DNA from: Streptomyces sp. NBC_01314
Lineage (GTDB): Bacteria; Actinomycetota; Actinomycetes; Streptomycetales; Streptomycetaceae
Direction of reading: 5' to 3'
Assembly: GCF_041435215.1 (NCBI RefSeq)
Contig: NZ_CP108394.1
Coordinates: 3,038,001-3,102,000 of the forward strand
Length of the DNA: 64,000 nt
The notes beneath the pieces are model-generated. The model worked only from the letters and a program-made list of their open reading frames with translations. It searched no databases and was not told the origin of the DNA. The position numbers and the translations under genes were made by a program. This document shows, one piece after another, positions 31,199 to 63,172 of the stretch. Within the stretch, counting starts at the first letter, position 1. Each line of letters starts with the position of its first letter.

Positions 31199-31266
31199 GG
31201 CAGGCACGGGCTTCGTGATCATTGTGGTGTCTAAGCCCAATGATCATGAGGTGGCCCGTGCCTGCC
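31199..31266 (+). repeat. Long hairpin at the IS left end covering the transposase start
   Basis: GGCAGGCACGGGC (31199-31211) pairs with GCCCGTGCCTGCC (31254-31266); inside it GTGATCATTG (31215-31224) pairs 9 of 10 with CAATGATCAT (31238-31247). The in-frame start codons at 31240, 31246 and 31258 are all inside the stem, so an mRNA reading in from outside would hide them. Confidence 0.75.
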
Positions 31267-32499
31267 GCTGTATCTTCTCCCATTCCCGCCGTGCTGGTGA
31301 AGCTGGGTCCGCTGGATGCCGGTCGGGTGGCTGACCTGCGCCTGTACTTCGACTCGGTGCCCGACCCGCGCTCCCGGCGGGGCCGGTGGTACTCGCTGAC
31401 CGCCATCCTGCTGGTGTGTGCCTGCGCGGTCGTCTCGGGAGCGAGGAGCATCGACGAACTCGCCGAGTGGGGCCAGCGTGCTTCGAACGGACTCCTGACA
31501 GTCATTGGGATCCGGCGCCACCTGCTCAGATGGCGGCGCACTCCGTCGCCGGCCACGATCGGCCGTGTGCTGGGGGCTGTTGACGGTGACGCCCTGGACC
31601 GGGCGGTGGGCGCCTACCTGGCCGACCGGCATCGCGCTGCCACCGAGCCGGCCCAGGCGCCGTCGCCGTCCGCGTCCGGGCCCTCGCGCGTGATCGCTGT
31701 CGACGGCAAAGCACTCAGGGGATCAGCCCGCCTCACCGCGACGCGCCGGCATCTGCTCTCCGCGGTCACTCACGGCACCGTCGTGACCCTCGCCCAGGTG
31801 GAGGTCGGCGCGAAGACGAACGAAACCACGCACTTCCAACCGCTCCTGGCACCGCTGGACCTGGCCGGCGCCGTCGTCACCTTCGACGCCCTGCACTCGG
31901 TCAAGGCGAACATCTCCTGGCTGGTCGAGGCCAAGAAGGCCCACTACATCGCCGTGATCAAGACCAACCAGCCGACCGCCCACAGCCAGCTCGCAGCCCT
32001 GCCGTGGTGGGACATCGCTGTCCAGTACACCGCCTCCGCCTCCGGACACGGCAGGCGCGAGTCCCGCTCGATCAAGACCTGCGCCGTCGCGGACGAACTC
32101 GGCGGAATCGCCTTTCCTCACGCCCGCCTGGCCATCCGCGTCCACCGCCGCCGCAAGCAGACCGGCAAGCGCGAGACCCGTGAGAGTGGCTACGCCGTCA
32201 CCAGCCTCGACGCCCACCAGGCCGGCCCCGCCGACCTGGCCGCCGCGATTCGCGGGCACTGGGGAGTGGAGAACTCCTCGCACCACATCAGGGACGTCAC
32301 CTTCGCCGAGGACGCCTCCACCGTCCACGCCGGAACCGCACCACGAGCCATGGCGACCCTCCGCAACCTCGCCATCGGCGTGCTGAAAACCCTCGGAGCC
32401 GACAACATCGCCAAGACCACCCGCGCGATCCGCGACGAGCCCCAACGAGCACTCCCCATCCTGGGCATCACCAACGGTCCGGACACCTACGGAACTTGA
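31240..32499 (+). CDS. ISAs1-family transposase
   Basis: Predicted DDE transposase of about 419 aa. The N-terminal region DPRSRRGRWYSLTAILLVCA and CAVVSGARSIDELAEWG is the family start; the catalytic Asp residues lie in VIAVDGKALRGSAR and VVTFDALHSVKANISWL, and the Glu in HWGVENSSHHIRDVTFAEDA. The frame is intact. Start choice is uncertain among 31240, 31246 and 31258. Confidence 0.9.
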   Translation: MIMRWPVPAAVSSPIPAVLVKLGPLDAGRVADLRLYFDSVPDPRSRRGRWYSLTAILLVCACAVVSGARSIDELAEWGQRASNGLLTVIGIRRHLLRWRRTPSPATIGRVLGAVDGDALDRAVGAYLADRHRAATEPAQAPSPSASGPSRVIAVDGKALRGSARLTATRRHLLSAVTHGTVVTLAQVEVGAKTNETTHFQPLLAPLDLAGAVVTFDALHSVKANISWLVEAKKAHYIAVIKTNQPTAHSQLAALPWWDIAVQYTASASGHGRRESRSIKTCAVADELGGIAFPHARLAIRVHRRRKQTGKRETRESGYAVTSLDAHQAGPADLAAAIRGHWGVENSSHHIRDVTFAEDASTVHAGTAPRAMATLRNLAIGVLKTLGADNIAKTTRAIRDEPQRALPILGITNGPDTYGT

Positions 32500-32509
32500 T
32501 CAAGCCCTG

Positions 32510-33358
32510 ATGACAGCCCCGTTGTCCATCGCCACTCCCGTCGACTTACGGGTCCAACCCGTCGACACGCTACTTGAGCGAGTGGAGCGTTCTCTTCAGG
32601 TCCGTTTCGACCGGGACACGATGGTGCGTAAGCGCCGGACCGTCGGCGCGCGTACAGACCGCGACACCTGGGTCCGGATCGAGCGCCGCCCGTTCAACAA
32701 GATCGAAGGCCAGGGGTGGAACAGCGCCGAGTGTGCCGCGCTGCTGAGCGTGATCAGGACGCCTGCTTGGTTCGGAGGCGTTGTCTGGAGTGACACCGCT
32801 GAGGCGATGATGTGGCGGGCCGATGAGAGCGAACCTCTGCCCGGGGACCCCGTGAATCCGCGTACGGCATTGGCTCTTTCGGGTGAGTGGTGGGCGGCGC
32901 TGAACGCCTCGCTGGATGTGCTGGCTGCCCACCACACGACGCGCGTTGCAACGCCGGACACCGTGACCGTCACCCAAGCCCGGGTCACGCAGTCCATCCA
33001 GGCTGTGTTTCCGGGCGTCCTCGACACGACGATCCGGAACTGGGCGCCGGCGCACGCGGATCTCACCTGGGCGAACGTGACAGGCCCGCAGTTCTGCCTG
33101 TTCGACTGGGAGGACTGGGGGATGGCTCCCCTCGGACTGGACGCTGCCTGGCTGTGGGGGAACTCGCTTGCCATCCCGGAGTTGGCCGCGCAAGTACGCC
33201 GTGAGCGGCACCGCGACCTGGAAAGCCGGGATGGAAAGCTGATGGCGCTGTTCTTCTGCTCCGCGATCGTAGGTCCGCACGCTGACCCGGATGACTCCCG
33301 GCTGTGGCTCGCTCAGATGGAGACGGAACGGCTTGTGGCCGAACTGCAGGCCGGTTGA
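32510..33358 (+). CDS. Aminoglycoside-phosphotransferase-like kinase
   Basis: Predicted 282-aa protein of the APH kinase fold. The catalytic-loop and metal motifs are WAPAHADLTWANV and CLFDWEDWGMAPLGLDAAWLWG; the N-terminal lobe (MVRKRRTVGARTDRDTWVRI) is short. The ATG starts exactly at the base after the IS end, so the original promoter and perhaps part of the N-terminus have been replaced. Similar genes occur in Streptomyces beside HD-domain and NTP-pyrophosphatase genes. The substrate is unknown; antibiotic resistance should not be assumed. Confidence 0.7.
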   Translation: MTAPLSIATPVDLRVQPVDTLLERVERSLQVRFDRDTMVRKRRTVGARTDRDTWVRIERRPFNKIEGQGWNSAECAALLSVIRTPAWFGGVVWSDTAEAMMWRADESEPLPGDPVNPRTALALSGEWWAALNASLDVLAAHHTTRVATPDTVTVTQARVTQSIQAVFPGVLDTTIRNWAPAHADLTWANVTGPQFCLFDWEDWGMAPLGLDAAWLWGNSLAIPELAAQVRRERHRDLESRDGKLMALFFCSAIVGPHADPDDSRLWLAQMETERLVAELQAG

Positions 33359-33584: not shown

Positions 33585-34178
33585 ATGCCGGGTATCAAGG
33601 TCGCGATGTGTACGGGGAATCCGGGCAAGTTCCGTACGGCTCAGGAGCATCTCGCGCCTTGGGGTATTGCGGTGGAGCAGGTGGCGTTGGAGCTGGACGA
33701 GATCCAGACCACGTCCGTCGCGGAAATCGCCCAGCACAAGGCCCGGCAGGCCTTCGCGATCCTCGGGCGACCGCTGTTCGTCGAGGACTCGGGGTTCTAC
33801 ATCGAGGAGTTCGGGGGCTGGCCGGGGCCCATGGTCAAGCAGGCCCTCGAAGCCTTCGGGCCCGGCGGATTCACGCACCTCGCAGACCTCACGGAGAAAC
33901 GGACGTGCCGCTTCGCGAGTGCCGCCGTGTACGTCGACGCGCGAGGCGAACTCCGCACCTTCGCGGATGACTCCCGGAAGCCGGGCTCCATCGCCTCTGC
34001 CCCCGATCGCGGTGATGGGCCGCGGTCCTGGTCGGATCTGTGGTCGATCTTCGTCCCCGAGGGCGCCACGTCGACGCTCGCGGCCCTGCCGGCCGCTGAA
34101 CAGGAGCAGGTGTTCGCCGAGTGGCGGGCGGACTCGGTGGTTGCCGCGATGGGAGCCTGGCTGTCTGGGCGCCGATGA
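33585..34178 (+). CDS. Ham1/RdgB-like non-canonical NTP pyrophosphatase
   Basis: Predicted 197-aa enzyme hydrolysing unusual purine triphosphates such as ITP or XTP to monophosphates. Family elements: VAMCTGNPGKFRTAQEHLAP at the N-terminus (nucleotide pocket), QTTSVAEIAQHKARQAF, and the catalytic LFVEDSGFYIEEFGGWPGPM. ATG at 33585 follows a GAGAAAGGG-like site; a longer in-frame extension upstream has no family similarity. Streptomyces has a housekeeping copy elsewhere, so this divergent one is probably dedicated to the adjacent cluster. Confidence 0.85.
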   Translation: MPGIKVAMCTGNPGKFRTAQEHLAPWGIAVEQVALELDEIQTTSVAEIAQHKARQAFAILGRPLFVEDSGFYIEEFGGWPGPMVKQALEAFGPGGFTHLADLTEKRTCRFASAAVYVDARGELRTFADDSRKPGSIASAPDRGDGPRSWSDLWSIFVPEGATSTLAALPAAEQEQVFAEWRADSVVAAMGAWLSGRR

Positions 34179-34274
34179 CTGCTTTGACGGTGCCCAACAC
34201 CCAGTGATCTGCTCGACGCGTCGTGCTGGCCGGTGGCCCGCCGCTGTCAGCTCTGCTGCCCAGCGGTCCGGCGG

Positions 34275-35021
34275 CTACTTGGTCGCGATGACGTAGACGC
34301 TGCCCCACTGGCGCTTCGGGTTGGCGATCTGCGGGTCGAAGTTCCAGGGCTCAACTGTGGTGAACCCTGCCTCGGTGAAGAGCTGGACGAGCTTGTCGTG
34401 GTCGTAGGCCCAGTAGTGCGGGTTGTAGGTGGGGGCGTCGTCCTGGTCTCGGAAGACGTAGTTGATCAGGTCGAGGTGTGTGTTGATGTCGTCGAGGCAG
34501 TCCCGTTTCCCGTACCACTTCTTGATCATCTCTTCGCTGTCAGCTGTGCCCTCCGGGTACTGGGCCAGCACGAAGGCGGCGTCGGGTACACCGGTGATGA
34601 GACGGCCGCCGGGGGCGAGTACGCGGTGGGTCTCACGGGCGTAGTGCTTGGCCGAGCGGGGGTAGTCGATGTGCTCCAGGAAGTGTTCGGAGAACAGTTC
34701 GTCGACGGTCGCGTCGTGGAGTGGTATGCCTTCGCGTACGTCCCACAGCAGGTCTGCGGGTGGTACGGCGTCGATGTTGAAGAAGCCGGCGATCCGGTGG
34801 GCCCCTCCGCCGATCTGCACCTTGCGGGGTGTGTCGTCGATGCGGCCGTTGGGCCAGGTCCTCTGGCTGGCCCGGTGGGCGCGGTGGAGTTCGAGCTCTT
34901 TGACGGTGGCGCGCAGAGCCCGGCCAAGGCCATGTGTCGTGGTCGGCTGTCGCAGCAGCCGCGTTATCTGCTCCATGACCTGGTCCGGGCTGGCTGTCTC
35001 GATGTTCTGCTGAGGCGTCAC
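34275..35021 (-). CDS. SAM-dependent methyltransferase (class I)
   Basis: Predicted 248-aa protein; GTG start with GAGGAGAT 6 nt upstream. Motif I appears as KVQIGGGAHRIAGFFNID, a form shared with methyltransferases of type-11/glycosyl clusters, and motif IV-V as FLEHIDYPRSAKHYARETHR followed by VLAPGGRLITGVPD. Last gene of the minus-strand operon, 51 nt after the unknown 464-aa gene. Substrate unknown. Confidence 0.8.
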   Translation of the reverse strand: MTPQQNIETASPDQVMEQITRLLRQPTTTHGLGRALRATVKELELHRAHRASQRTWPNGRIDDTPRKVQIGGGAHRIAGFFNIDAVPPADLLWDVREGIPLHDATVDELFSEHFLEHIDYPRSAKHYARETHRVLAPGGRLITGVPDAAFVLAQYPEGTADSEEMIKKWYGKRDCLDDINTHLDLINYVFRDQDDAPTYNPHYWAYDHDKLVQLFTEAGFTTVEPWNFDPQIANPKRQWGSVYVIATK

Positions 35022-35072
35022 GGTGATCTCCTCGGAAGTCGTCGCGGGCGAGTGGGGCTGCGGTTGCGTTCC

Positions 35073-36467
35073 TCAGGCGGCCGTCGGTGACGGGCTCGCT
35101 GACCGGCTGTTGCGCATCAGGGTGTACTTGATGTCGACGAGTCGCGGGGCGATGGTCACGTCCAGTTGCTCCGTCGGGTGTAGCCGCCCGATGTTGTCTT
35201 GTTCGGCGCGCCACACCCGGTACTCAAGATCGGGGTAGGCGGGGTTGATGCCGATCTCGCCCTTCGGGATCGTGCCGTTGAAGGGCGTGATGATGTCCAT
35301 GTGGTTCCAGTAGTTCCAGGCCTGGAGTGCCTTGTGCTGGTCGAAGTAGAAGTAGAAGTCGGGGTATCGGCCGAAGGTCCGCAGTTCGCGGTGGATGAGG
35401 TGGCCCAATAGCGGGCCCAGGTGGGTGGCCAGGCTGTCGAACTCCCACCGGGTGTGTCGCCACTCCTCCGGTACCTGGCCGGGCGTGAAGAGGCGGGCGG
35501 CGACGAGGTAGCTGATGCGCTCGACCAGGTAGCTCCGGGCGTGCTGGGGATCGATCGTCCGGTCCACGCGAGTGAGGAGGCTGTCGAGCTTGTCGGGGGA
35601 AGGGCGGAACTTGGCGAGGTCGAACTTGCCGGCCATCGCCAGTTCGGAGGAGAAGATCATCTCCTTGTAGAGCCAGTTGTTGAACTCGCCGAGTTCGGCC
35701 AGGCGCCGGGTCTCGTCGCTGGTGGAGTGGAGCATCAGGTACTCGGCGAGCGCTTCGAAGAAGACGTATCCGAGGATCGGCAGGCGAGGGATGGTCTCGT
35801 CGAGCAGCTGGAGGAACGACTCGGCTGCGACGGTGGCACCTGTGTGAGCGATCGTCGAGGCGAGGGCGAGGAAACTGGCGGAGTTCCTTGTCCTGCTGGT
35901 GATCGTCTCGCGCAACTGGTGCCGTTCGGTCTTGGACAGCAGGTATTCCAGGTGGCTGTAGATACTCAGGTGGATGGCGCCGAGCCGCAGGTAGTCGATG
36001 CCGGCGAGGCCGCGGTACGCCTGGCGTGGCACATCGATCTCGAAGAGCAGCGGAGTGGGCGTTGCCTCGGCCTTTCCGATCCTCTTCAGGAAGGCGGGGG
36101 CTTCCCGGTTGAGGACGTACGAGGCGAGGTTGTGCATGCGGAAGCCCTGGTCGGCCGGGGTGAGCGGGGCGCAGTAGATGCTGCCGACGAGACAGCCGCC
36201 CGAGGGGTACAGCACGCCGTGCTCGTTGATCTCCTCCAGGGCATGGGTGACGTGCAGCAGGTGCAGCTTGGTGCTGCTGTTGAGGGCGTCGAAGAGGGCG
36301 TTGCTGCGCAGGAGAGCGCCGTGGGGGGTCTGCTCGGCCAAGCGGGTCTCCCAGGCGGCGGTCTGCTCGGCCAGTGGGTCGGTGGCTTCGGCCGGGTTGG
36401 GGATGATCGAGGCCTCGTAGAACTCGTGGGCGTCGGCCCACAGGTGGTACGCGTCGAGGAAGTCCAT
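35073..36467 (-). CDS. Unrecognised 464-aa protein of the CYTH/HD cluster
   Basis: I do not recognise this protein. The ATG shares one base with the HD gene stop (TGATG), indicating translational coupling. No signal peptide or membrane segments. Notable features: an N-terminal region LHLLHVTHALEEINEHGVLY followed by PSGGCLVGSIYC, vaguely like the HxT...I...G pattern that opens ADP-ribosyltransferase-fold domains, a long helical middle (SSELAMAGKFDLAKFRPSPD) and an aromatic-rich C-terminal part (RYPDFYFYFDQHKALQAWNY). Its tight packing with HD and CYTH genes suggests it works on or with a nucleotide. Confidence 0.8.
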   Translation of the reverse strand: MDFLDAYHLWADAHEFYEASIIPNPAEATDPLAEQTAAWETRLAEQTPHGALLRSNALFDALNSSTKLHLLHVTHALEEINEHGVLYPSGGCLVGSIYCAPLTPADQGFRMHNLASYVLNREAPAFLKRIGKAEATPTPLLFEIDVPRQAYRGLAGIDYLRLGAIHLSIYSHLEYLLSKTERHQLRETITSRTRNSASFLALASTIAHTGATVAAESFLQLLDETIPRLPILGYVFFEALAEYLMLHSTSDETRRLAELGEFNNWLYKEMIFSSELAMAGKFDLAKFRPSPDKLDSLLTRVDRTIDPQHARSYLVERISYLVAARLFTPGQVPEEWRHTRWEFDSLATHLGPLLGHLIHRELRTFGRYPDFYFYFDQHKALQAWNYWNHMDIITPFNGTIPKGEIGINPAYPDLEYRVWRAEQDNIGRLHPTEQLDVTIAPRLVDIKYTLMRNSRSASPSPTAA

Positions 36468-37234
36468 CAGCCGATCAGCTCCCGCTGTTCGAGGGCCTTG
36501 AGGACAGCGTCCGCGCTGTCGAGTCCTGCCAGGTGGCCGGCTTCGGACCAGAGGACGAGGTCGAAGGCGGCTGCGCGGAGCTGGTCGAAGCCTTCGACGC
36601 GTACGTGTTGTGCGTCTGGCCACCAGCTGAGCTTCGGCAGCCGGTAGCGGTCGAGCGCGTCGGCAGCCTTCACCAGGTCGCTGATCTTCCGGGCGCGCGA
36701 GTAGTCGGCTTCGTCTTCTGCGGTGAAGGCCGCGTACGGCACGTCGTGGAGACGAACGGAGATAGTGGCCTGGGCGACGGCTGATGCTGTCGCCGGCACG
36801 TGGAAGTGTTCCCAGACGAGGTCCGTGTGGCTGGTGAGCCATCGCGCCGCGCGCGCTCCGTGGCCTCGGTCGTCCTTGTCGTGGAGTCGCCGACAGTCGT
36901 GGACGGCGGCAGCGACGATCAGTGTGGCTGTATCCGGTTCGTCGAGACCGGTGGTCTCGGCGAGGAGGGCCGCGAGTGCGGCGGTGCGCATCGCGTGCCG
37001 AACTCCGTGCAGGGAGTCGCGCAGGCGGGGTTCTGCGAGCCAGGCCGTCGGTATCGCCGCGCGCGTGAGGAGCCTGCGGGACGTTTCCCGGATCTTCGTC
37101 GGCGCGCTGTCGACCAGGCGCGGTCGGTTCTCCTCGATCCAGCGCACCGTCGCGTGGTCGACGAACTGGTGGTACGGGAGCTGCTTGCGTGCGGCGAGGT
37201 CCACCAGGCTGGTGGCCGGCGGGGTCGTGCTCAT
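36467..37234 (-). CDS. HD-domain phosphohydrolase
   Basis: Predicted 255-aa metal-dependent phosphohydrolase; ATG with GAGGGG upstream. The HD signature is HGVRHAMRTAALAALL then VAAAVHDCRRLHDKDDRGHG, with further His in VRLHDVPY. Proteins of this superfamily hydrolyse nucleotides or cyclic nucleotides. Lies 40 nt after the CYTH gene and overlaps the 464-aa gene, so it is the middle of a coupled set. Confidence 0.85.
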   Translation of the reverse strand: MSTTPPATSLVDLAARKQLPYHQFVDHATVRWIEENRPRLVDSAPTKIRETSRRLLTRAAIPTAWLAEPRLRDSLHGVRHAMRTAALAALLAETTGLDEPDTATLIVAAAVHDCRRLHDKDDRGHGARAARWLTSHTDLVWEHFHVPATASAVAQATISVRLHDVPYAAFTAEDEADYSRARKISDLVKAADALDRYRLPKLSWWPDAQHVRVEGFDQLRAAAFDLVLWSEAGHLAGLDSADAVLKALEQRELIG

Positions 37235-37274
37235 CTAGTCCACCCCTCTCGGTGGTCCATCGCGACGAGTTGAC

Positions 37275-37856
37275 TCAGGTGGCGGGCGCCGCGTGTGAGG
37301 AGCGGCCGGCGGCCTGCTGCGCTGCTTCGAAGGCCGCGGTGAAGTCGGCGAGCTCCTCCTCACTCATGAGATGGACACCAAGCTCGCGTGCCACCGACTC
37401 GATGCGGTCCTGGGCCACCTGGACTGCCGCCGGGCTCGGTTCGTCGCCCAGGAGCACTTCGAACTCGGCGTGGTGGCCCCACGCTTCGCTCCACTTGACC
37501 GCGATCTCGACTCCGCCGAGGCGGAAGTTGCGGCGTTGGTTGTACGCCTCGTGCATCGTTTCCTCGAAGCCGAGTGCGTTGAAGACACGGACCGCGGCTT
37601 CAACGTCCTCGCGGGCGATGGGGATCTCGGTTTCCGGGAATGCCGTGCCGTGCCCAATCTTGCTGGTCTTGAGGGTGATCTTCGCCGTGTTGGTGGCGAT
37701 GTTGTCGGTTACCTTCAGCAGCTGATCGGGCAGCACGTAGAAGTAGATGTGCTTGTCGTCGGGGCCGAGGTCTTCGCCGTCCTGTTCGAGGCGCGAGATG
37801 AGCTGGTCGTGGGCTTCCTGACTGAAGCGGGCACGCATTTCGATCTCGACAGGCAC
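37275..37856 (-). CDS. CYTH-domain (triphosphate tunnel) protein
   Basis: Predicted 193-aa protein. GTG at 37856 with AAGGAGG 5 nt upstream. It opens PVEIEMRARFS, carrying the ExExR/K triphosphate-binding motif of CYTH enzymes, and continues with alternating charged strands (LKVTDNIATNTAKITLKTSK, RRNFRLGGVEIAVKWSEAWG, HHAEFEVLLGDEP). Such tunnels bind tripolyphosphate or NTPs and act as triphosphatases or class IV adenylyl cyclases. Which activity applies here cannot be told from sequence. Confidence 0.82.
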   Translation of the reverse strand: MPVEIEMRARFSQEAHDQLISRLEQDGEDLGPDDKHIYFYVLPDQLLKVTDNIATNTAKITLKTSKIGHGTAFPETEIPIAREDVEAAVRVFNALGFEETMHEAYNQRRNFRLGGVEIAVKWSEAWGHHAEFEVLLGDEPSPAAVQVAQDRIESVARELGVHLMSEEELADFTAAFEAAQQAAGRSSHAAPAT

Positions 37857-38008
37857 GGTGTCCTCCTTGTTCGGGCATGGGTGATCCAGCCGAACCAAGT
37901 GGGGTGGAGCCCGGCTGGTCCGGATCGGTAGCGATGTTCGGCTGTTTGCGCTGGTGCGGGCGGCGCGGGCGCCGTTTGGCGTCCGCGCCGCCTGTCAGAA
38001 GGAGATCG

Positions 38009-38308
38009 TCAGGCGATGTCGCCGAAGCGGTCTCTTACGACGCCGTCATGCAGGTAGGTCGGGAGCTGCACGCCTCCCACCGAGAGACGCTTGGTGGCCA
38101 CCTGGTCCTCGCTGTCGCTCGGGAACCCTTCCAGAAGGCGCAGGCACTGCCGCACCCATTCACGGGACTGGTCCCAGTCGCCGTTGTCGCGATGCCTCAC
38201 GGCCAGCGCGTACGCCGTCTCCGCCGCCGCCCATCGATTGGTGCCCAGTTCCCGCTGGAAGCCGGTCTCCAGTTCTTCGACGGAGGCGACGCGGGTTTCG
38301 CTGGTCAT
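38009..38308 (-). CDS. Small TPR-like protein of the CYTH/HD cluster
   Basis: Predicted 99-aa protein; ATG at 38308 with GAGAGGA upstream. Two amphipathic helices, RWAAAETAYALAVRHRDNGD and WDQSREWVRQCLRLLEGF, look like one tetratricopeptide-type hairpin. No catalytic motif. Located between the NDP-kinase and CYTH genes on the same strand, so possibly an adaptor. Confidence 0.65.
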   Translation of the reverse strand: MTSETRVASVEELETGFQRELGTNRWAAAETAYALAVRHRDNGDWDQSREWVRQCLRLLEGFPSDSEDQVATKRLSVGGVQLPTYLHDGVVRDRFGDIA

Positions 38309-38382
38309 GTTGTCCTCTCTCATCCGGTGGATCCCCGGTGGTGTTCAACGCGGCGACGACCAGCTGGTGACGTGGAGGTCGC

Positions 38383-38892
38383 CTAGTAAGTGAAGATCTC
38401 AGCGAGGGTGCGGTAGTCCTGGAGCTCGTCCTTGTCGAACCAGAGGTCCACTTCCTGATCCGCTTCCTCCTTGTTGCCGGAGGCGTGCACGAGGTTCGCG
38501 GCGGCCTTGCCGGAGGCGACGCTGGCGGCCTTGCTGTAGTGCGAGAAGTCCCCGCGGATCGTGCCGGCGGGCGCCTCGTTCGGGAAGGTGCTGCCGACGA
38601 TCTTCCGGACGGTGGCGACGGCGTCGGCTCCTTCCAGAACAAGTGCGATGACGGGGCCCTGCTGCATGAACGTGGCGGTGATGTTGTAGACCTCGGGACC
38701 GAAGCGTTCTTCGAGGTCGAAATAATGGCGTCGCGTGAACTCGGCGTCCATCTGCTTCATCTTGATGCCGACGATCTTCAGTGCCGCATCTTCGAATCGG
38801 GAAATGATCTTCCCTGCGAAGCCACGCACAACGGCGTCGGGCTTCAGCAGTACGAGAGTGCGCTCCACCGGCTGCTTCTGATCCTGGGCCAT
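38383..38892 (-). CDS. Nucleoside-diphosphate-kinase-like protein
   Basis: Predicted 169-aa protein, longer than housekeeping NDP kinases (about 137-140 aa). It starts RTLVLLKPDAVVRGFAGKII, and the active-site His lies in NLVHASGNKEEADQEVDLWF. The extra length is a GKAAANLVH-preceding insertion (THE region FSHYSKAASVASGK) and a C-terminal tail ending LQDYRTLAEIFTY. A second, divergent NDK next to CYTH, HD and Ham1 genes implies a specialised NTP-supplying role. First gene of the minus-strand operon. Confidence 0.83.
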   Translation of the reverse strand: MAQDQKQPVERTLVLLKPDAVVRGFAGKIISRFEDAALKIVGIKMKQMDAEFTRRHYFDLEERFGPEVYNITATFMQQGPVIALVLEGADAVATVRKIVGSTFPNEAPAGTIRGDFSHYSKAASVASGKAAANLVHASGNKEEADQEVDLWFDKDELQDYRTLAEIFTY

Positions 38893-39135: not shown

Positions 39136-40467
39136 CAGGGCTGATTCAAAGTCCTGGTGATCATGTGGTGTTGCTGGTCAAGGCAGTCCGATCAGGTCCA
39201 GTGGGCGGGTGAAGGGCGTGTAGGAGAGCTCGCGCAGGCCGGCGGCGATGCTGTGGTGCCCAGCGGTGCGTAGGGTGCTGATCGCGAAGCTGCGCAGGGT
39301 GGCCATGTTCTCCGGTCCGTGGCCGGTGCGGATCTTCGAGGCGTCCTCGCCGAACGTGGTGTCTCTTACGTGGTGCACGGCCTCGATGCCCCATTGCGCG
39401 GGCGAGTTGGCCGATGGCCTGGGGAGATGCCGCACGCGCCGTCAGGTCGGTGATGGCGTAGACGGTCTCACGGGTGATCTTGCCGGTTTTGAGGTCGGTG
39501 CGATGCCGGTGGATCTTCGCGGCCTGCGCCACGTGCGGGAAGTCCAGCCCGAGACTGGTGACGGTGAGGGTGCGCACCGAGCGGGTCTCACGTCGCCCGT
39601 GCCCCGCCTCGCGGTCGTAGCGGCGGGCGGTCACCTCCTTCCACGGCAGCGAACGCAACGCGTTGTGCAGCGTCGGCTGGTTCCGCTTGACCACGAGCAG
39701 GTAGTGCGCCCTCTTCGCTTCGACCAGCCACCTGGCGTGGTCACGGTGGGTGTGCAGGGCGTCGGCGGTCACCACGACACCGGTCAGGTCGAACGGGGAC
39801 AGCAGCTTCGTGAAGCCGGTGACCTCGGTGGTCTTGTCCGGCACCCGCAGCTGGCTGACGGTGCGTCCGCCTTCCAGGACGGCGGAGAGCAGGTGGGCGG
39901 CCGGGCCGGTGTCCGTGCGCGAGCCGCGGGCGGTCTTGCCGTCCATGGCCAGGTGCCGGCTGCCCGTGGGGTCGCATCCGAGTAGGTCGGCAAGCCCGCC
40001 GGGACATACGAGAGTCAGCAGACGGCGGATGGTTGAGCTGGACGGTGCGCGGCGCACGCCCAGTGGGCCGGTGGCGCGCACGCCGAGGCGGGCCAGTGCG
40101 TCCAGGGGCGCGTGGCGGGCCCACTGGCCCACGGCCAGATAGGAGCGAGCCCCGGCCAGCACCGCGCAGCAGGCGGTGAGCAGGACCGATGCCAGCGAAT
40201 GTCGCCGTCCCCGCCGATCTCGCGGATCGCGAAGAACGGCCAGTCGTTCGGCGACACCCTTCACGCCTCGCTGGGCGGCGGTGGGCGACTTGGTCAGGCA
40301 GACAGTGGCAGACTGGCGGCACATCGAAGCTCCGGACGGGCAGGGCGACTTGGGAAGGTCACCCCGTCAACCGGAGCTTCGTTGTGTTCGTGACGGACTT
40401 CCGCCGGATCGTCACACCTCCGCGACCTGCACGTTTCCATGACCCCCAAGACTTTGAATCAGCCCTG
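39136..40467 (-). mobile_element. ISAs1-family insertion sequence (element B), degenerate
   Basis: Terminal inverted repeats CAGGGCTGATTCAAAGTC are perfect over 18 bp (39136-39153 and, inverted, 40450-40467). Length 1332 bp with one frameshifted transposase gene. The flanks (CGCCCTGGCA on the left, GCCTAAGCAC on the right) show no target duplication. On its right it truncates a DNA methylase gene whose 5' part is not found on its left, so DNA was lost at the site. Confidence 0.85.
39178..40324 (-). pseudogene. Frameshifted ISAs1-family transposase
   Basis: Begins VKGVAERLAVLRDPRDRRGR and retains the catalytic regions LAMDGKTARGSR and VVVTADALHTHRDHARWLVE. Near 39410, after SPQAIGQLARA, the frame breaks; the conserved WGIEAVHHVRDTTFGEDASK and following tail are in another frame (39178-39435). 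The element is therefore probably inactive unless helped in trans. It is a different ISAs1 type from element A. Confidence 0.8.
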
Positions 40468-42451
40468 GCCTAAGCACGGGGGCGCGCCAGAGGCGCCCAC
40501 GGACCAGGTGTTTCGGGCGCTACGTGGTCGCGACCAGGCTGTAGCGCCGGACGGAACTCACGAGAAGATCCTGCGACTGCGGGACGCCTACCACTTCTTC
40601 CACTGGCACCTGGAGTTCCCAGAAGTATTCTCCGTCCCGGAGTCGGGCGTCGGTGTTCAGCTGGGCACGGGCTGGTCGGGCGGGTTCGACGCGGTAGTGG
40701 GTAACCCGCCGTGGGAGCGTGTCAAACTCCAGGAACAGGAGTTCTTCGCCCAGCGCAACCCAGACATCGCCGAGGCCAAGAACGCCGCCGCCCGCAAACG
40801 CCTCATCGTCGAATTGCGCGACGCCCCCGAGGGTGCGCGCCTCTACACCGAGTTCGAGGACGCCAAGCGACGCGCAGAGGGGGAGAGCCACTTCCTGCGT
40901 ACCAGCGCCCGGTTCCCCTTGACAGGTCGCGGCGACATCAACACGTACGCCGTGTTCACGGAGACGGACCGGTCGCTGACGGGGCCTCAGGGGCGGACCG
41001 GCGTGATCGTGCCGACGGGTATCGCGACGGACGCGACGACCCAATACTTCTTCAAGGACCTGGTCGAGCGAGGGGCCCTGAGCAGTCTGTTCGAGTTTGG
41101 AAACGAGGACAAACTCTTCGCGGCGGTCAAGGACTACGTGCGCTTCTGTCTCCTTACGATGAAAGGTCAGGGCAACCCCGACGCGCCCATCTCTATGGTC
41201 GCCAAGGTTCGCCAGGTTGCCCAGATCGCCGACCGTTCGTACACCCTGACCGCACGCGACATCCTCCGTGTCAACCCGAACACGGGCACGTGCCCCATCT
41301 TCTCTTCTCGCCGCGACGCGGATATCACTCTCGGCATCTACCGCCGCATGCCCGTCCTGATCGACGAGAGCAACAAGGCTGGAGGGAACCCCTGGGGCAT
41401 TTCGTTCATGGCTATGTTTCATATGTCGAACGACTCCCACCTGTTCCGTCCCGCCGCCCAGAAAGGGGAAACGTTCGAGGACCTCCTCAGGGCCGGCTGG
41501 GCTCTCGACGGCAGCGTCCTCACCCGAGGCGAGGAGCGCCTGCTGCCGCTGTATGAGGCGAAGATGATGCACCACTACGACCACCGCTTCTCCACGTACG
41601 AGGACGCCACGGAGAAGCAACTCAACGAACGCACCCTTCCGCGTTTCACCACGGAACGCCACCAGGACGCCATCGCCGTACCTCTGCCGCGCTACTGGGT
41701 GCCGGAGCAGGATGCTCCGACCGGCGAGGTCAACAAGGACGGCAAGCCCATCAGGGTGCCGGGTGTGCGCAGCCGCCTGGCCGCCAAGGAGTGGGACCAA
41801 GAGTGGTTGCTGGGTTGGCGCGACATCTGCCGGGCGAGCGACGAGCGCACGATGATCAACTTCATCTTTCCTCGTGCGGGTGCACCGGACGGAACTCTCC
41901 TCATGCTGCCCCGCGAAGGCCAAGTAGCAGCCCTATCGGCCTGTTTGTCCTCTTTCGTGCTGGACTTCGCCACACGTCAGAAGGTCGGTGGAACTCACCT
42001 CAAGTTCTTCACCGTCCGCCAACTCCCGGTCATCGCTCCTGAACAGGTCACACCACACTCGGAGTTCATCAACCTTCGTGCCCTTGAACTCGTCTACACC
42101 AGCACTGACATGGCTGGGTTCGCCCGCGACCTCGGCGACACTAGCGCCCCCTTCCGCTGGGACCCCGTTCGCCGTGCCGTCATCCGCGCCGAACTGGATG
42201 CCCTCTTTTTCCGCCTCTACGGCATCACCCGTGAGGACACGGAATACATCCTGGACACCTTCAACGGCGTCCGGGACAACGACATCAAGGCCCACGGCGA
42301 GTACCGCACCAAGAACCTGATCCTCGCCGAATACGACCGCATGGCCGCCACCGGCCTCACCCTGGAGAACCCCCTCACCGAGGGCGAATCCGGCACCTAC
42401 CGCTCCACCCTCACCCCGCCCCCGGGCCACGGCCCCAGGCACCCCGCCTGA
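40468..42451 (+). pseudogene. 5'-truncated large N6-adenine DNA methylase
   Basis: The surviving ~660 residues are the C-terminal part of a large Eco57I/BREX/DISARM-like adenine methylase. The catalytic motif is FDAVVGNPPWERVKLQEQEF, preceded by DAYHFFHWHLEFPEVF, and followed by ESHFLRTSARFPLTGRGDIN and GVIVPTGIATDATTQYFFKD. The SAM-binding motif I and everything before it is missing: the frame enters directly from the inverted repeat of IS element B. The reading frame is otherwise open, so decay is recent. No other genes of such a system remain nearby. Confidence 0.8.
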
Positions 42452-53950: not shown

Positions 53951-55759
53951 TCAGTTCGTACGAGTGTTGGACAAATGCGGCCCCACGTAGCCGATTATCA
54001 CCTTGCCCGTGGCGCCCGCTGTGTCGTCGTAGAAGTGGACGCGAGGCGCGATCCTTCCCTTGTTGTCAATCTTGATGTGGGCTTCCATGAACACCTTGCC
54101 CGAGGCGTCGACTTCCACCGGCACAGGGAGCATTCGCTGCTGCCGGAACTTCTTGTCGTTGCGCACGGAGTCGGACTCCACCATGGCCACACGCGTCAGC
54201 GGGTAGGTACGCATGCCCTGTGGGGAAGCCTCGCAGAAATCCCGAAAGGTCCCGTCGAATCCCTGCTCGCTGGCGCTGCTCGCCCCGTAGGAATCCAGCG
54301 CCAGCAGCGCGTCCCACACTTTCGACGCCCAGGTCGAGCTTTTCATGTCGTCGTCGAGGTCCTCCGCCTTGCTCTTGTCGTAGGTCAGAACAAGATGCTT
54401 CATCCGCTCGTACACGCATTCGTTCAGTTCGGCGAAGGACATCGGCGCCGGTTCTTCCGCTGGCGGTGTGTAGGCGTCCTCCGCCCGGCCAGCCTTCACC
54501 AGCCGCTGCTGCAGAACCGCCACTTGGTAACGCAGGGCGGACAGCTCCGCCTGCGTGGCATCGTGGTCGGCGATTTCGTATTCGTAGCGGTCGGTCGCAT
54601 CCCGCAGCTGCTCATCGAGCGCGCGCCTGCCGCGCTCCGCTAGGTCCCGGGCACTGGCTGCCTCGCTCAGCTCCTCCAGCGCCTTGTCGATCGTCTCGTT
54701 CGCCGTGCTCAGTTGGGCGCGCAGGGATCCGACGGTCTCGTTCCCCAAGGATTCAGCGGTCTGGGACCGTGCCGCCCGTAGATTCTTGAGGACCTCCTCG
54801 ATGCCTGGAAACGCGGGCTCGGCGAGCAGGGCCGGCTGCGGCGTGGTGACAGCGTGCTGGCGCGGGTGCCTGGAGATGCGGATGTCCGCGTTGCGGAACT
54901 CGGGATCGCTGAGCCGCCGGTACGTCAGCAGGCGGTGCCGCCGACCGTCTTCGGCGGAGCCGAGGGCGACGTCCGGAAGATACGTACGTATCTGACCGGG
55001 GAACACGTCGTGCCGGTCTCCGGCCGCCTCCCGGAAGGCGGGGACGGCCTCCCGTTCCAGCCGGAACACCGAGGCGATTCCGACCAGATTCCTGGCGACC
55101 CCGGTCAGCAGCTTTTCCCAACCCGGATCATCGTTGGAAGGCTCCGCCGCGAGGACCAATGGCAGCTGTCGCGTGGGATCGGTGAGAGCGGACGTGAGCA
55201 AGCCGACCGAGTCGGGGCCGATCAGGTGAGGAGTGGTGGAGAGCCGAATCGTCCCATCCGGCACGGTGAAGTGATCGAGAATCTCACGGACGAGCCGAGG
55301 AGGGACCGGTGTGGACTGCCGTCTGCCCGGGCTGGGATAGTGCTCCAGGTCGACACCGACGTACGCCGCTTTCGACTCAAGGTCAACAGCGGACGTGAGC
55401 GTCGTCTGCCAGGTCCCCTCCTGCTTGTCCTCCTTGCTCTCCCGTAGACGTAGCCGCAGCGCGGTTTGATGGCCGTCGGTGTTGTAGGAGTCGGTCACGG
55501 TGAGGGTGTAGGCGTCCGTGAGCCGATGGACGCCCGAGGAGAGGTGCGTCGCCAGCCCCTTGCTCTCCAGCCAGGAGGTGAAGCACGAGCGAGCCCCGGC
55601 GAACATCTGTGCCTGCTCGTTCTCGGGAATCGGCAGTACCGCCCGGTAGACCAGCGGGTTCTCAGCACGCGGCTCGTCTCGGACGAACCCGTCCCGACCC
55701 CATCGCGGAGCCTGCGGCGCGGGCTTGCGGCTGGGCATCACCAAGGGAGTGGGTCTCAA
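53951..55759 (-). CDS. Unrecognised ~602-aa protein with central coiled coil
   Basis: I take a TTG start at 55759 because AGGAGG stands 6 nt upstream; an ATG at 55738 lacks a ribosome site. Layout: N-terminal globular region of about 330 residues (YRAVLPIPENEQAQMFAGAR, SAVDLESKAAYVGVDLEHYP), a coiled coil of about 100 residues (TVGSLRAQLSTANETIDKAL to ALRYQVAVLQQRLVKAGRA), and a C-terminal globular domain (MKSSTWASKVWDALLALDSY, APRVHFYDDTAGATGKVIIG). No Walker motif or nuclease signature I can name. Lies in the defence island, so an effector or sensor role is possible. Confidence 0.7.
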   Translation of the reverse strand: MRPTPLVMPSRKPAPQAPRWGRDGFVRDEPRAENPLVYRAVLPIPENEQAQMFAGARSCFTSWLESKGLATHLSSGVHRLTDAYTLTVTDSYNTDGHQTALRLRLRESKEDKQEGTWQTTLTSAVDLESKAAYVGVDLEHYPSPGRRQSTPVPPRLVREILDHFTVPDGTIRLSTTPHLIGPDSVGLLTSALTDPTRQLPLVLAAEPSNDDPGWEKLLTGVARNLVGIASVFRLEREAVPAFREAAGDRHDVFPGQIRTYLPDVALGSAEDGRRHRLLTYRRLSDPEFRNADIRISRHPRQHAVTTPQPALLAEPAFPGIEEVLKNLRAARSQTAESLGNETVGSLRAQLSTANETIDKALEELSEAASARDLAERGRRALDEQLRDATDRYEYEIADHDATQAELSALRYQVAVLQQRLVKAGRAEDAYTPPAEEPAPMSFAELNECVYERMKHLVLTYDKSKAEDLDDDMKSSTWASKVWDALLALDSYGASSASEQGFDGTFRDFCEASPQGMRTYPLTRVAMVESDSVRNDKKFRQQRMLPVPVEVDASGKVFMEAHIKIDNKGRIAPRVHFYDDTAGATGKVIIGYVGPHLSNTRTN

Positions 55760-56024
55760 CGCTGGCCTCCTGCTTGATCGACGAACGGGAGGGATACCCC
55801 GCACACCAGCACCGCCACGTCTCCCCAACCGTTACGTCCTGACTCCGATCCCCTGACCGAAGGCGCGAAATGGCTGCTGAGGATGATGACGAACAGAATT
55901 CGCAGGTATCCAGACTGGGCTTGGCTTGGTCTTTGTAGTTCGCGAGCTTGAGAGAGCCACAACCGCCATCGAGGCTCAGGGCTACCCCGTGCCGCTCACC
56001 GAGTGAGTGCGAGCGCGTCAACGC

Positions 56025-57335
56025 CTACGCGGCCAGCGCAGGGAACACGACCACCGAGCCGTCCTTGTCACGGGCGATCTCGATCGCCACGTCTGTCGTG
56101 CGGCTGTTGACCGTGACGCCGTCGCCCAGTTGGTGGATCCGGTGGGCCGCGCTCAAGAGACGATCGACTTCACCGGTCGTGAAGACGGGTCGCTTGCCGT
56201 TCGGGCGTGCCAGCTCCAGTGCCGACAGGCGTACCAGGACACCGGCGATGCTCGACTCCAGTTCGTCGAGGCGCTGCTGATCGCGCTTGAGTGCGCGGGT
56301 GAAGTTCTCGAACGGGTTGCCGGGGTCGCTCTGGGCGTGCTCGACGGCCTGGAGGACGACGACCCGCCGCATCAGCGCGATGGCCAGGGAGGCGAGTTCG
56401 AGGTGGGTGCGGAACGTGCCGCCGTGGTCGTCGACACCGGGGAACGACTTGGTCAGCGTGCCGAGTTCGACGGCCTCGCCGTCGGGCAGCCTGTCGAGCG
56501 CACTCTGCCATCGGGCCAGGCGGAGGTCGGCTTTGCTCAACGCCGTGTCGATGGTGTGCACCGCCGAGTCGAGTCCCAGCGAGGCACCGAGCTTGCCCTG
56601 GTCGAGCAGGATGGCCGTGGCCTTGTCGATGGCGGCACGGCAGCCGTTGAGTGCGCTGTGCTCGTCGTCGAGCTTGTCCTGCTGAAGTTGCTCCAGCAGT
56701 TCCGTGATGTGTTCGATGGCCTGCTGGCGCTTGTGGTCGGCATGGGCGCTCACCCCCACCGCCACGGCCATGAGCACGAGCGGAGCGGCCACGGTGAGCG
56801 CCGTGCCACCGGCGGCCACGGCACCGGCGGTCGCACCGGCCCCGCCGGCCGTGCCCGCCGCTGCCGCTCCTCCGACCGGCACGAACGTCGCACCGCCGGT
56901 GATTTTGCCCGCCGTGTCCATGAGCGGACCGCGAATGCCACCGGCCACCGCCTTCGACGCCATCGGGCTGACGAGCCCCTGCCCGAGCTGGGCGGCGACC
57001 TTCGCCGGGACCACCATGCGATACAGATTCTCGCCGGAAGCGGTCGCTCTGGCCGCAGTAAGAGAACTTCGTGCCGATTGAGTGATGAACTGGGACAGGT
57101 GCTGCGCCAAGGGGCTCGCGGCGTCGAGCGGGATGCCACGGCCCCGGTCGATCTTGTCGGGCAGGGGATGTACCTCAAGCGTGACAATGGGCTCGTCGGC
57201 CAGGACGGCGAGCACTCCGCGCAGTTCAACCAGGCGCTCAGCCGTCATCGACTCACCCGCGGTCAGCCCTGGCACCCGGACGTCAGCGGTCGCCAGCGTC
57301 CACACGGGCACGGTCGTCTTCCGGTCGTCAGTCAT
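56025..57335 (-). CDS. Unrecognised 436-aa protein with central hydrophobic Gly/Ala stretch
   Basis: ATG after AGGGGAG. N-terminal soluble part (LRGVLAVLADEPIVTLEVHP), a central Gly/Ala-rich segment from about residue 145 (AAAGTAGGAGATAGAVAAGG then TALTVAAPLVLMAVAVGVSA) that may insert in membrane, and a helical C-terminal half (IEHITELLEQLQQDKLDDEH). The layout recalls pore-forming or membrane-associated effectors, but no family is recognised. 45 nt downstream of the helicase remnant on the same strand. Confidence 0.7.
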   Translation of the reverse strand: MTDDRKTTVPVWTLATADVRVPGLTAGESMTAERLVELRGVLAVLADEPIVTLEVHPLPDKIDRGRGIPLDAASPLAQHLSQFITQSARSSLTAARATASGENLYRMVVPAKVAAQLGQGLVSPMASKAVAGGIRGPLMDTAGKITGGATFVPVGGAAAAGTAGGAGATAGAVAAGGTALTVAAPLVLMAVAVGVSAHADHKRQQAIEHITELLEQLQQDKLDDEHSALNGCRAAIDKATAILLDQGKLGASLGLDSAVHTIDTALSKADLRLARWQSALDRLPDGEAVELGTLTKSFPGVDDHGGTFRTHLELASLAIALMRRVVVLQAVEHAQSDPGNPFENFTRALKRDQQRLDELESSIAGVLVRLSALELARPNGKRPVFTTGEVDRLLSAAHRIHQLGDGVTVNSRTTDVAIEIARDKDGSVVVFPALAA

Positions 57336-57380
57336 CGTCTCCCCTTGTCTTCCAACATGCTCGTAGCCCCAGTCGCGCCA

Positions 57381-57743
57381 TCACCGCACGTGCACCCACC
57401 CGTGCAGCCCCTCCAGATGCCGCGGTAGCCGGTCGCCCTGCCAACCCAGCACCAGCCGCTCTCGCGCACGAGTGATCATGACGTAGTACGCCATGCGCAG
57501 GGTCGCAGACGTGGGGTCGGTGGCGGAGCCGAACTCCGCGTCGGCGATGACCACGGTGTCGAAGTCGAGGCCCTTGGCGCCGACGTGGTGGACAACAGCC
57601 ACTCCGGGGCGGGCGAGGTCGCGGTAGCGGCCGGAGGAGGGCGACGCGGAACGTCTCAACCTCTCCATGACCGACGGCAACTCCGCCTCGATCGTGCGCC
57701 GTCCGGCCTCGGCCGTCGGCTCCCCACCCATAGTGCCCCCCAC
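57381..57743 (-). pseudogene. 5'-truncated UvrD-type helicase (C-terminal domain only)
   Basis: 120 residues end a helicase: RPGVAVVHHVGAKGLDFDTV, VIADAEF and YYVMITRARERLVLGWQGDR are motifs V and VI of UvrD_C. The ATPase core is missing and upstream sequence is AT-rich intergenic DNA. The intact RelE-helicase at 61017 carries the same kind of C-terminal motifs (YVACT/RARE). Confidence 0.7.
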
Positions 57744-57865
57744 TTGAGCGTTCGAGCACCCGGACTTCCCCCGAAGAGTCGGCCGGGCACAACGAGCACT
57801 CTAGAACCGGCACGTTTACACCGTCAACACGTTCACCCGATTTGTTTACACATCTATAGAGTCAC

Positions 57866-57893
57866 TTGACGGCGTCAACAGGTAGGCTAGGGA
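57866..57893 (+). promoter_or_regulatory. Promoter of the McrBC operon with a palindrome over the -35
   Basis: TTGACG (57866-57871), 16-nt spacer, TAGGGA (57888-57893), then 37 nt to the GTG at 57931. The -35 is part of a perfect 13-bp palindrome TTGACGGCGTCAA (57866-57878). A further CGTCAA at 57822-57827 and GTTTACAC repeats lie upstream in an AT-rich stretch. A repressor bound here would silence the restriction operon. Confidence 0.55.
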
Positions 57894-57930
57894 CATTGGC
57901 GCAGGCCTCGCGACTCCCGGAAGGTCACCC

Positions 57931-59752
57931 GTGTCCCAGCCCGAACTCCTCCCCGGTACACCCGAGTTCCATATCAAGCTGCCCAAGGGCGGTGAGGCGC
58001 GCGGGCATCTCCTCGCCGAGTTCGGCGGCAACGGCCCCCACAAGTTCCTTCTGCGGGAGGGTTCCCTGGTGGCTGCCGAGGCCTGGCCCGGGCTCGGCGA
58101 CCATGCCCGCCGCAACCGCGCGGAGCTGCGCGCGAGCGGCGGCCTCGTCGACGCTCCCGCCGATCCCAGCTTGCCGCAGGCGGAGCGCCGTTGGTTGGCG
58201 ATTCGGGACATCGCGTGCAACTCCTCCTCGGCCGCCGCCGCGCTCGTGTACGGCTACGACGCCTCCGGTCCCGAGTCCTGGCGCGCCGCGGAGGGCCACC
58301 CGCTCGCCGACTATCTGTCCACCGGCTGGCGTGCCCCGCGCAAGGCGTGGCTGGCGCGCGGCTCCAATGTCTCCGGGCACAACCTGGTGCGGCAGCTGTG
58401 GCTGACGGAGGGTTTCGTCTCTCTCGGCCGCGCATCTGCCGCCCCTGGAGGAGACAGACCCGACCAAGAGCGCGCTGCGCCGCTTCGTGGAGGACGGGTA
58501 CGAGGGGGCTGCCTCGTACAACCAGAAGCGGGGCCTCGTCGACGAACTGCACGCCTTCCTGACGCAGATGCGCATCGGCGACACCGTCGCCACCATCGGC
58601 GACGGATCGCTGCACATCGGGCGGATCACCGGGGATGCCGTACAGACCTCGTCGCCGGGCGGGTTGTCCAATCTGCGGAGGACCGTCGCCTGGATGCCGC
58701 AGAGCCATGCGTACGAGGAGTTGCCGGAGGAGGTCCAGCAGAAGCTGTCCGTCCAGCACGACGTCGTCGATCTGACCGGTGTACTGGACGCGCTCGACGG
58801 GCTCACAGGGCAGACGGACCCCACGACCCCGGCTGCGACCGGCGACACCGGCGAGCACCCCGCCGTGGAACGACCGGGGCAACGCGAGCTGTCGCTGCCG
58901 CACATCACCGAGGAACTCGCCGCCGACCTCCTCGTCCACGATCAGGCCTGGTTGGAGGAGATGCGCGAACTCCTCATCGATGAGCGGCAGTTGGTGCTCT
59001 ACGGCCCACCGGGCACCGGTAAGACCTATCTGGCGATGAAACTCGCCGAGTACTTCGGTGGTGGTCCGGAGCAGGTCAAGATCGTGCAGTTCCATCCCTC
59101 GTACGCCTACGAGGACTTCTTCGAGGGGTTCCGGCCCGTGGAGGACCCCGAGACCAGGGAGGTGGCCTTCCGGCTGACGGCGGGCCCGCTCAGGGAGCTC
59201 GCCGATCTCGCCCTCCGAGAGGGCAACCGGCACATCCCGCACTTCCTGATCATCGACGAGATCAACCGTGCCAATCTGGCGAAGGTCTTCGGCGAGCTGT
59301 ACTTCCTTCTGGAGTACCGGACGCGGTCGGTACGTCTCACCTACTCCGGAGACGACTTCGCGCTACCGCCCAACCTCTTCGTGATCGGCACGATGAACAC
59401 CGCCGACCGGTCGATCGCCCTCGTCGACGCGGCGATGCGGCGCCGCTTCGCGTTCGTGGAGCTGTCCCCGCGCACCGAACCGACCGCCGGCCTGCTCGCG
59501 CGCTGGCTGAAGCGTGAGGGCCGGGACGTGGAGCCCGCCCGCCTTCTCGACGCTCTCAACACCCGTATCGACGACGCCGACTTCGCCATCGGGCCGTCGT
59601 ACCTGATGAAGCCGGGCGTGTACCGCGACGGCGGCCTCGAACGGACCTGGCGCACGAAGATCCTGCCGCTGCTGGAGGAACACCACTACGGCGAGGGCCT
59701 CGACGTCACCGCACGCTACGGCCTCGACTCGCTGCGCGAGCAGCACCCGTGA
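57931..59752 (+). pseudogene. McrB-like AAA+ GTPase/ATPase with frameshift
   Basis: GTG start with GGAAGG 6 nt upstream. The N-terminal ~160 residues carry a DUF4357-like module (WRAAEGHPLADYLS, HNLVRQLWLTEGFVSL). At (TC)4, 58418-58425, the frame breaks; the protein resumes one base on as SAAHLPPLEETDPTKSALRR and VEDGYEGAASYNQKRGLVDE. The AAA+ core is intact: Walker A LYGPPGTGKTYLA, Walker B HFLIIDEINRANLAKV, sensor FVIGTMNTADRSIALVDAAM with RRRF. About 607 aa if joined. Its end overlaps mcrC. Type IV McrBC restriction cuts modified DNA. Loss of one TC unit would explain the break. Confidence 0.75.
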
Positions 59753-63152: not shown

Positions 63153-63172
63153 TCGGCAGCCCGGATCGGTCC

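Follow-up and report, generated by a model that had tools for sequence, protein, structure and literature searches.

Bacterial ADP-ribosyltransferase (ART) toxins such as DarT, which attaches ADP-ribose to a base, are already known in phage defence, and we are not aware of any ART linked with a PIWI system or a nucleotide pathway. Viperin-type antiviral makers are host enzymes that produce modified nucleotides, and Kongming systems contain the Ham1-like KomB and the SIR2-like KomC, with a SIR2-type NADase as the effector. In Kongming, dITP produced by KomA, a phage kinase and the host nucleoside diphosphate kinase (NDK) brings about the depletion of NAD+ (PMC12948488). Another study describes RES toxins as breaking down NAD+ and names only TIR and SIR2 NADases for the known NAD-targeting immunity systems (PMC11535050). 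The pPIWI-RE systems were described in 2013 as three genes without a methylase, and the text examined of that description names no fourth gene resembling the one reported here (PMC3702460). A further paper, PMC7641849, speaks of "Piwi-related" and has no bearing on pPIWI-RE. We have analyzed a 64,000-nucleotide stretch of the genome of the soil bacterium Streptomyces sp. NBC_01314, referred to below as the window, which contains a six-gene operon centred on U464, a protein of 464 amino acids. The component enzymes come from known superfamilies, the central family has no name in the libraries searched, and the six-gene set matches no known system that we found. Our main point, absent from the earlier note on this DNA, is that U464 likely has an ART fold, as judged from structural models.

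The six-gene operon and its conservation

The operon is transcribed from the minus strand in the order NDK, TPR-like protein, CYTH enzyme, HD protein, U464 and methyltransferase. These genes and the two that flank them at the methyltransferase end are as follows.

38383..38892, minus strand: NDK, long form, 169 aa (Pfam PF00334, 134.7 bits, E=2.6e-39, over the cut-off)
38009..38308, minus strand: TPR-like small protein, about 99 aa (weak TPR_12 match, 20.3 bits against a cut-off of 30.1, E=6e-4)
37275..37856, minus strand: CYTH (triphosphate-tunnel) enzyme (Pfam PF01928, 27.0 bits, E=4.5e-6, over the cut-off)
36467..37234, minus strand: HD-domain phosphohydrolase, 255 aa (PF01966, 19.6 bits against a cut-off of 22, E=0.0012)
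35073..36467, minus strand: U464, 464 aa (no family match)
34275..35021, minus strand: class I S-adenosylmethionine-dependent methyltransferase, 248 aa (PF08241 Methyltransf_11, 28.2 bits, E=3.1e-6, over the cut-off)
33585..34178, plus strand: Ham1-type NTP pyrophosphatase, convergent behind the methyltransferase (PF01725, 81.6 bits, E=8.8e-23, over the cut-off)
32510..33358, plus strand: APH-like (kinase-like) gene, farther out than Ham1 (APH, 16.3 bits against a cut-off of 23.2)

The first four genes are separated by gaps of 74, 152 and 40 nucleotides, the HD and U464 genes overlap by 1 nucleotide in TGATG, and 51 nucleotides lie between U464 and the methyltransferase gene. The six minus-strand genes are thus present as the earlier note had claimed, and its wording of overlaps or short gaps is fair. 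Start codons were picked from the lengths of homologues and from ribosome-binding sites. The HD protein retains the motifs HG.RH, HD.RR and ALDRYR. The hallmark of CYTH proteins is an ExExK motif together with tunnel residues; the window protein and most aligned members of its family carry ExExR in its place (judged by eye), and the window protein scored 26.3 bits, below the cut-off of 57.95, against TIGR00318, the model used to test for class IV adenylate cyclases and CYTH triphosphatases. No DNA-binding domain was detected by Pfam among the cassette proteins, and the sole PADLOC match among the eight cassette and flank proteins was that of the methyltransferase to mad2 (E=7e-4). The genome contains one further NDK gene and one further Ham1 gene, each outscoring the cassette copy against its family, which indicates that the NDK and Ham1 of this locus are extra copies. 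It also contains two other CYTH genes, a list in which the weakly matching cassette CYTH does not appear.

To follow the operon in other genomes, we used 200 sampled genomes of the window's family and a scan of GTDB contigs, in which 109 U464 relatives were found and 80 of these 109 were kept, corresponding to 78 distinct loci. So that context would not bias the choice, 40 of the 44 U464 loci in the family sample were fetched, from 35 genomes (left out were the window's own locus, G131, G151 contig 29 and G161). Gene maps were made with a simple open reading frame (ORF) picker guided by GC3 (G+C content at third codon positions), which misses genes such as the REase gene in L039 and L040. Genes were classified with hidden Markov models (HMMs) built from clusters of the loci in both samples, and locus groups were assigned by hand. 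The six-gene operon is real and conserved. The earlier note would have been refuted had the genes not co-occurred in other genomes, and the unit passed this check: 14 of the 40 fetched loci were six-gene cassettes, each with all six genes, and the recurrence of these genes in the same order and on the same strand shows that the arrangement is more than chance. Among the Actinomycetota loci with enough flanking sequence (n = 39, including four pPIWI-RE loci, L044 and L056), U464 was accompanied by the HD gene in 35, the methyltransferase gene in 34, and the CYTH, NDK and TPR genes in 33 each, always on the same strand. The genes are also inherited together: pairwise distance matrices of U464 correlated with those of HD (0.93), CYTH (0.96), methyltransferase (0.97) and NDK (0.92), values from which host relatedness has not been removed and for which two-copy loci were omitted.

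A NUDIX gene was found in 29 of the 39 Actinomycetota loci, in 27 of them on the opposite strand and usually divergent; the NUDIX-type protein of L004 also has a weak helix-turn-helix match. The window, L002 and L048 have no NUDIX-family match, and Ham1 may therefore stand in for NUDIX in them; the contig of L036 ends before the corresponding place. Translated searches (tblastn) of the 78 loci placed Ham1 beside U464 only in L002, L036 and L048 and returned a single weak match, in L077, for the APH-like gene. The earlier interpretation of the locus as an undescribed nucleotide-centred multi-gene unit has thus held for the six genes, which recur elsewhere in order and strand, but not for Ham1 and the kinase-like gene, which it had counted as parts. 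A literature search of open-licence papers brought up none that, judging by its listing, describes the six-gene combination.

The core of the cassette also occurs in loci labelled as Candidate Phyla Radiation (CPR), a set of 14 that includes L061, L065, L067 and L068, whose titles say no more than "bacterium". With the window proteins as queries, tblastn detected HD and CYTH in 13 of these 14 loci each and the methyltransferase in 11. In the 11 loci with enough flank, HMMs found both HD and CYTH in all 11, the methyltransferase in 9 and a P-loop kinase in 8, together with a cytidine/dCMP deaminase in 5 and a thymidylate-synthase-like gene in 3; NDK and TPR were found in none of the 11. L061 carries a CYTH-HD fusion (by eye), the HD part of which was matched at residues 283-392. 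Within CPR, the U464-CYTH distance correlation was 0.53. The 128 CPR neighbour proteins included AAA_17 kinases (11), NUDIX (7), dCMP deaminase (5), thymidylate synthase (4) and radical SAM (3), and these neighbourhoods also gave mixed PADLOC matches and many genes that look like housekeeping genes by eye. A second methyltransferase, a second CYTH protein and DUF6624 are common to streptomycete loci and to unclassified metagenome-assembled genome (MAG) loci of the CPR-labelled clade. DUF6624-type proteins lie near cassettes of both types (L004, L110, L061 and L068), and the second CYTH protein, which is CyaB-like, lies near the cassette in streptomycete loci and one unclassified MAG locus (L021, L023, L026 and L065). 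A protein with a GreA/GreB C-terminal domain, possibly concerned with RNA polymerase protection, is close to the CPR-type cassette in L051, L052, L067, L068 and L078, and an ORF resembling nicotinamide-nucleotide adenylyltransferase by eye (L050:6067-7014, minus strand) lies two genes upstream of a CPR cassette.

Predicted fold and occurrence of U464

None of the models of Pfam, NCBIfam and PADLOC matched U464 at E<=1. When 33 diverse members were compared with Pfam, at best one chance-level match each was obtained, in five members; none matched an ART model, and DarT (PF14487) was matched by 0 of the 33 at E<=1. Two AlphaFold models of the family, computed from separate lead sequences with overlapping alignments, reached pLDDT values of 85.5 and 90.3. 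The predicted structure is an ART fold split by a helical insertion at about residues 160-390. In structure comparisons, ART-fold entries made up 7 of the 50 VIA rows for model 1 and 12 of the 21 for model 2 and held the top places in both, RES being the first row for model 2. The remaining rows mostly match the helical insertion. The structural scores for the ART similarity are low, and nothing can be concluded from the fact that other ART families do not appear in the VIA lists. Foldseek returned no match at E<=0.001 in PDB and BFVD. Searching the sequences of solved structures with the U464 profile yielded matches at E=0.035 and E=0.66, both of which fall within the helical part; when phmmer was run with the window sequence, no E value was lower than 0.17.

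Members of the H-Y-E type ART superfamily carry a conserved His, a Tyr or Ser and a Glu on core strands. In U464, a strongly conserved family, H72, Y98 and E404 are invariant in 105 of 105 alignment rows, and 50 positions in all are near-invariant; alignment A2 omits L062, where a stop codon falls within the given range. The three residues, which may form the active site, lie on or adjacent to the predicted strands 67-74, 97-105 and 405-407. HHalign of U464 with one DarT subgroup gave E=0.0042 at a probability of 8%, compared with E=0.14 for the other subgroup and 0.19-0.9 for seven control families. Taken together, the two models, the invariant His72-Tyr98-Glu404 and the faint resemblance to a single DarT subgroup suggest an ART-fold protein with a helical insertion and the corresponding putative active-site residues, and from this we infer that U464 may use NAD+. 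In its predicted fold and candidate H...Y...E layout U464 resembles RES-Xre, DarTG and other ART-fold proteins, from which it differs in its length of 464 aa, its large helical insertion, the lack of an ART Pfam match and its other partners.

Of the 7,997 candidates scored in a search of 5.8 billion proteins, 393 were homologues of U464 at E<=0.001. The family was present in 38 of the 200 sampled genomes of the window's family and in 1 of 396 genomes sampled across the phylum, namely the window's own; it thus seems to be mainly streptomycete. Outliers were found in Micromonosporaceae and Nonomuraea, as well as in Saccharopolyspora and Carbonactinospora, the latter two among the matches listed (the best 120 of 393). 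The relatives from the GTDB scan include Woesebacteria, Shapirobacteria, Nomurabacteria, Sungbacteria, Portnoybacteria and Parcubacteria, at 35-46% identity. The hosts of the CPR core are assemblies of 0.5-1.2 Mb (11 genomes), and among 379 genomes sampled from the phylum of one CPR seed, U464 was present in two only, both of them seeds. A plasmid collection contained six relatives, 37-53% identical, and a phage collection gave no match to U464 or to the operon. This patchy occurrence suggests horizontal spread.

Genomic contexts and known systems

The 26 fetched loci other than the six-gene cassettes fell into three types: (i) an HD-U464 pair without CYTH (19 loci), of which 17 carried an NAD-epimerase gene and 16 a divergent XRE gene; (ii) the set TauD, nucleotide-sugar dehydrogenase, U464 and GT4 (4 loci); and (iii) loci adjoining pPIWI-RE (3 loci). 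In all contexts but the last, the partners of U464 are nucleotide or nucleotide-sugar enzymes.

Seven pPIWI-RE loci, all from Streptomycetaceae, were retrieved in total (L039, L040, L041, L047, L138, L139 and L145), six of which are distinct, as L139 repeats L047. U464 lies directly 3' of the pPIWI-RE gene in the six distinct loci, and the two frames overlap by 4 nucleotides in L039-L041. The order PD-(D/E)XK nuclease, pPIWI_RE_Y/REase, pPIWI_RE_Z/DinG, pPIWI-RE and U464 was seen in L138, L139 and L145 with HMMs and in L039 and L041 with Pfam or PADLOC, the PADLOC names in L041 being PprPDDEXK, PprDinG and PprPIWI. In a tree of 104 rows, made by a quick method and with some long branches, the six pPIWI-RE rows form one clade (support 93), as do the CPR-labelled rows (99) and the branch with sugar genes (100). 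The pPIWI-RE family PF13032 is present in 57 of the 200 family genomes, which makes U464 an occasional companion of it. While U464 directly follows the gene of this system (PADLOC "Ppr") in the loci above, the window cassette has no Pfam match to pPIWI_RE, REase or DinG, and the genome's sole PF13032 match is weak and distant (C1:250774). A type I-like DNA methyltransferase (L044:6438-8408, minus strand; PADLOC E=2e-88) lies near the HD-U464 pair of L044, whose U464 groups with the pPIWI-RE clade.

Several loci are linked to phages. The cassettes of L004, L011, L110 and L111 lie a few kilobases before neck, major tail and tape-measure genes; an ABC transporter adjoins the cassette in L004, L011 and L110, between it and the phage genes, and is about 5 kb off in L023. 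On the viral contigs L112 and L210, the set TauD, nucleotide-sugar dehydrogenase, U464 and GT4 is found near terminase, portal and major head genes. PHROG matches back the phage calls for L110 and L112. The idea that cassettes are generally prophage cargo was dropped, as six queries for phage structural genes found no match in any of the 40 fetched loci.

Kongming is comparable in its outline, to which the cassette would correspond: a nucleotide is modified, a monophosphate kinase and NDK turn it into a non-canonical triphosphate, and the output consumes NAD (PMC12948488). However, the NAD-related protein of the cassette would have an ART fold, CYTH, HD and methyltransferase are added, and no specific family is shown in common. 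In the eight window proteins Pfam detected no SIR2 domain at E<=1, and for these two reasons we do not file the cassette as Kongming. Viperin-type makers are comparable in concept, being host enzymes for the production of modified nucleotides, but no radical SAM enzyme was found by Pfam among the eight window proteins, and the family accounts for only the 3 CPR neighbours mentioned above.

In the window, transposase ORFs at 31222-32499 (plus strand) and 39161-40324 (minus strand) flank the operon, Ham1 and the APH-like gene in the manner of a composite element; the two look related yet differ, and are ISAs1-like by eye only. Just past the second one, at 40439-42451 (plus strand), lies a partial type IIG restriction-methyltransferase gene, which PADLOC matches at E=6.5e-20, most strongly over positions 947-1129 of the 1524 in the profile. 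Further defence-type genes occupy 53951-63985, namely, an HEC-07-like gene (53951-55828), a type II REase-like gene (58487-59752), a UvrD-type helicase gene (61017-63152) and a type I methyltransferase fragment (63173-63985).

Possible functions of the operon

Our preferred reading, which we put forward tentatively and at somewhat less than an even chance, is that the six genes form a single modified-nucleotide pathway, inherited as a unit and mobile between lineages by horizontal transfer, in which U464 would use NAD+ and which would most likely serve in conflict with phages or plasmids. The methyltransferase, joined in some CPR loci by the deaminase or the thymidylate-synthase-like enzyme, would alter a nucleotide, which NDK (in CPR, the P-loop kinase) would phosphorylate towards the triphosphate. 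CYTH and HD would strip phosphates from the altered nucleotide or from competing nucleotides, the divergent NUDIX protein, or Ham1 in the window, may sense or clean the product, and U464 would either transfer ADP-ribose to a key product or target or break down NAD+. Conflict is proposed as the use because U464 follows the PIWI gene in pPIWI-RE islands and is phage-borne; the pPIWI-RE clade, phage carriage and patchiness together make defence the favoured role, which is thus suggested by context. The flanks of the cassettes weigh against this reading: the 69 ORFs flanking 14 sampled cassettes matched 39 PADLOC families, the 25 listed appearing in one protein each, and with matches so scattered an enrichment in defence islands is not shown. 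The notion of defence islands as the general location of the cassettes was dropped accordingly, the scattered flank matches having no matched control. In a more specific form, which we consider unlikely, U464 would be a new ART-fold, NAD+-using family of immunity outputs that moved between streptomycetes and CPR and exists in a version coupled to the Argonaute-like restriction system pPIWI-RE and in a Kongming-like cassette version, where methyltransferase, kinase or NDK, CYTH and HD would both make and control a new nucleotide signal.

The main rival, possible in our view though doubtful, is that the genes form a small cluster for the biosynthesis of a compound of the nucleoside or nucleotide-sugar type, kept or exported, for which U464 would take ribose or ADP-ribose from NAD+ and CYTH, HD and NUDIX would strip phosphates. 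The accessory genes that vary around a constant core would fit such a cluster, as would the high conservation of U464, the ABC transporter near some cassettes, and the branch-2 U464 proteins that occur with the NAD epimerase (17 of the 19 loci with HD but no CYTH) or, in 4 loci, alongside TauD, nucleotide-sugar dehydrogenase and GT4. However, the transporter is not constant, the pPIWI-RE clade has no biosynthetic partner, and the core occurs in the 11 small CPR assemblies, where natural-product clusters are unexpected. We regard it as decidedly unlikely that U464 instead puts ADP-ribose on a DNA or RNA base to mark self or to counter restriction, with trimming, methylation or glycosylation to follow. 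Such base modification would agree with the weak profile similarity to one DarT subgroup, the glycosyltransferase beside phage-borne copies, the DNA methyltransferase adjoining U464 in L044 and a pPIWI-RE triad described, in the text examined, as lacking a methylase (PMC3702460), but NDK, CYTH and the kinase work on free nucleotides, Pfam found no DNA-binding domain in the cassette proteins, and its DarT model matched none of the 33 U464 members. That ordinary nucleotide house-cleaning genes were grouped by chance or convenience seems highly improbable. Ham1, NUDIX, CYTH and HD are indeed common sanitation enzymes, of which, as of NDK, the window genome has more; this reading is opposed by the constant order and strand across many genomes, the core common to distant groups, the duplication of existing genes and the uneven distribution, U464 being present in 38 of the 200 genomes of the family and in 1 of the 396 of the phylum.

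Should the cassette be biosynthetic after all, it would represent a nucleoside-type pathway in streptomycetes and also in CPR bacteria, where, given the small genomes, such a pathway would be unexpected. If U464 is an NAD-using ART with links to both a PIWI-type system and a nucleotide pathway, it would be a new effector family and perhaps reflect a new signal chemistry in bacterial immunity, and the cassette may serve bacteria against their viruses as a chemical weapon or alarm of a new kind.

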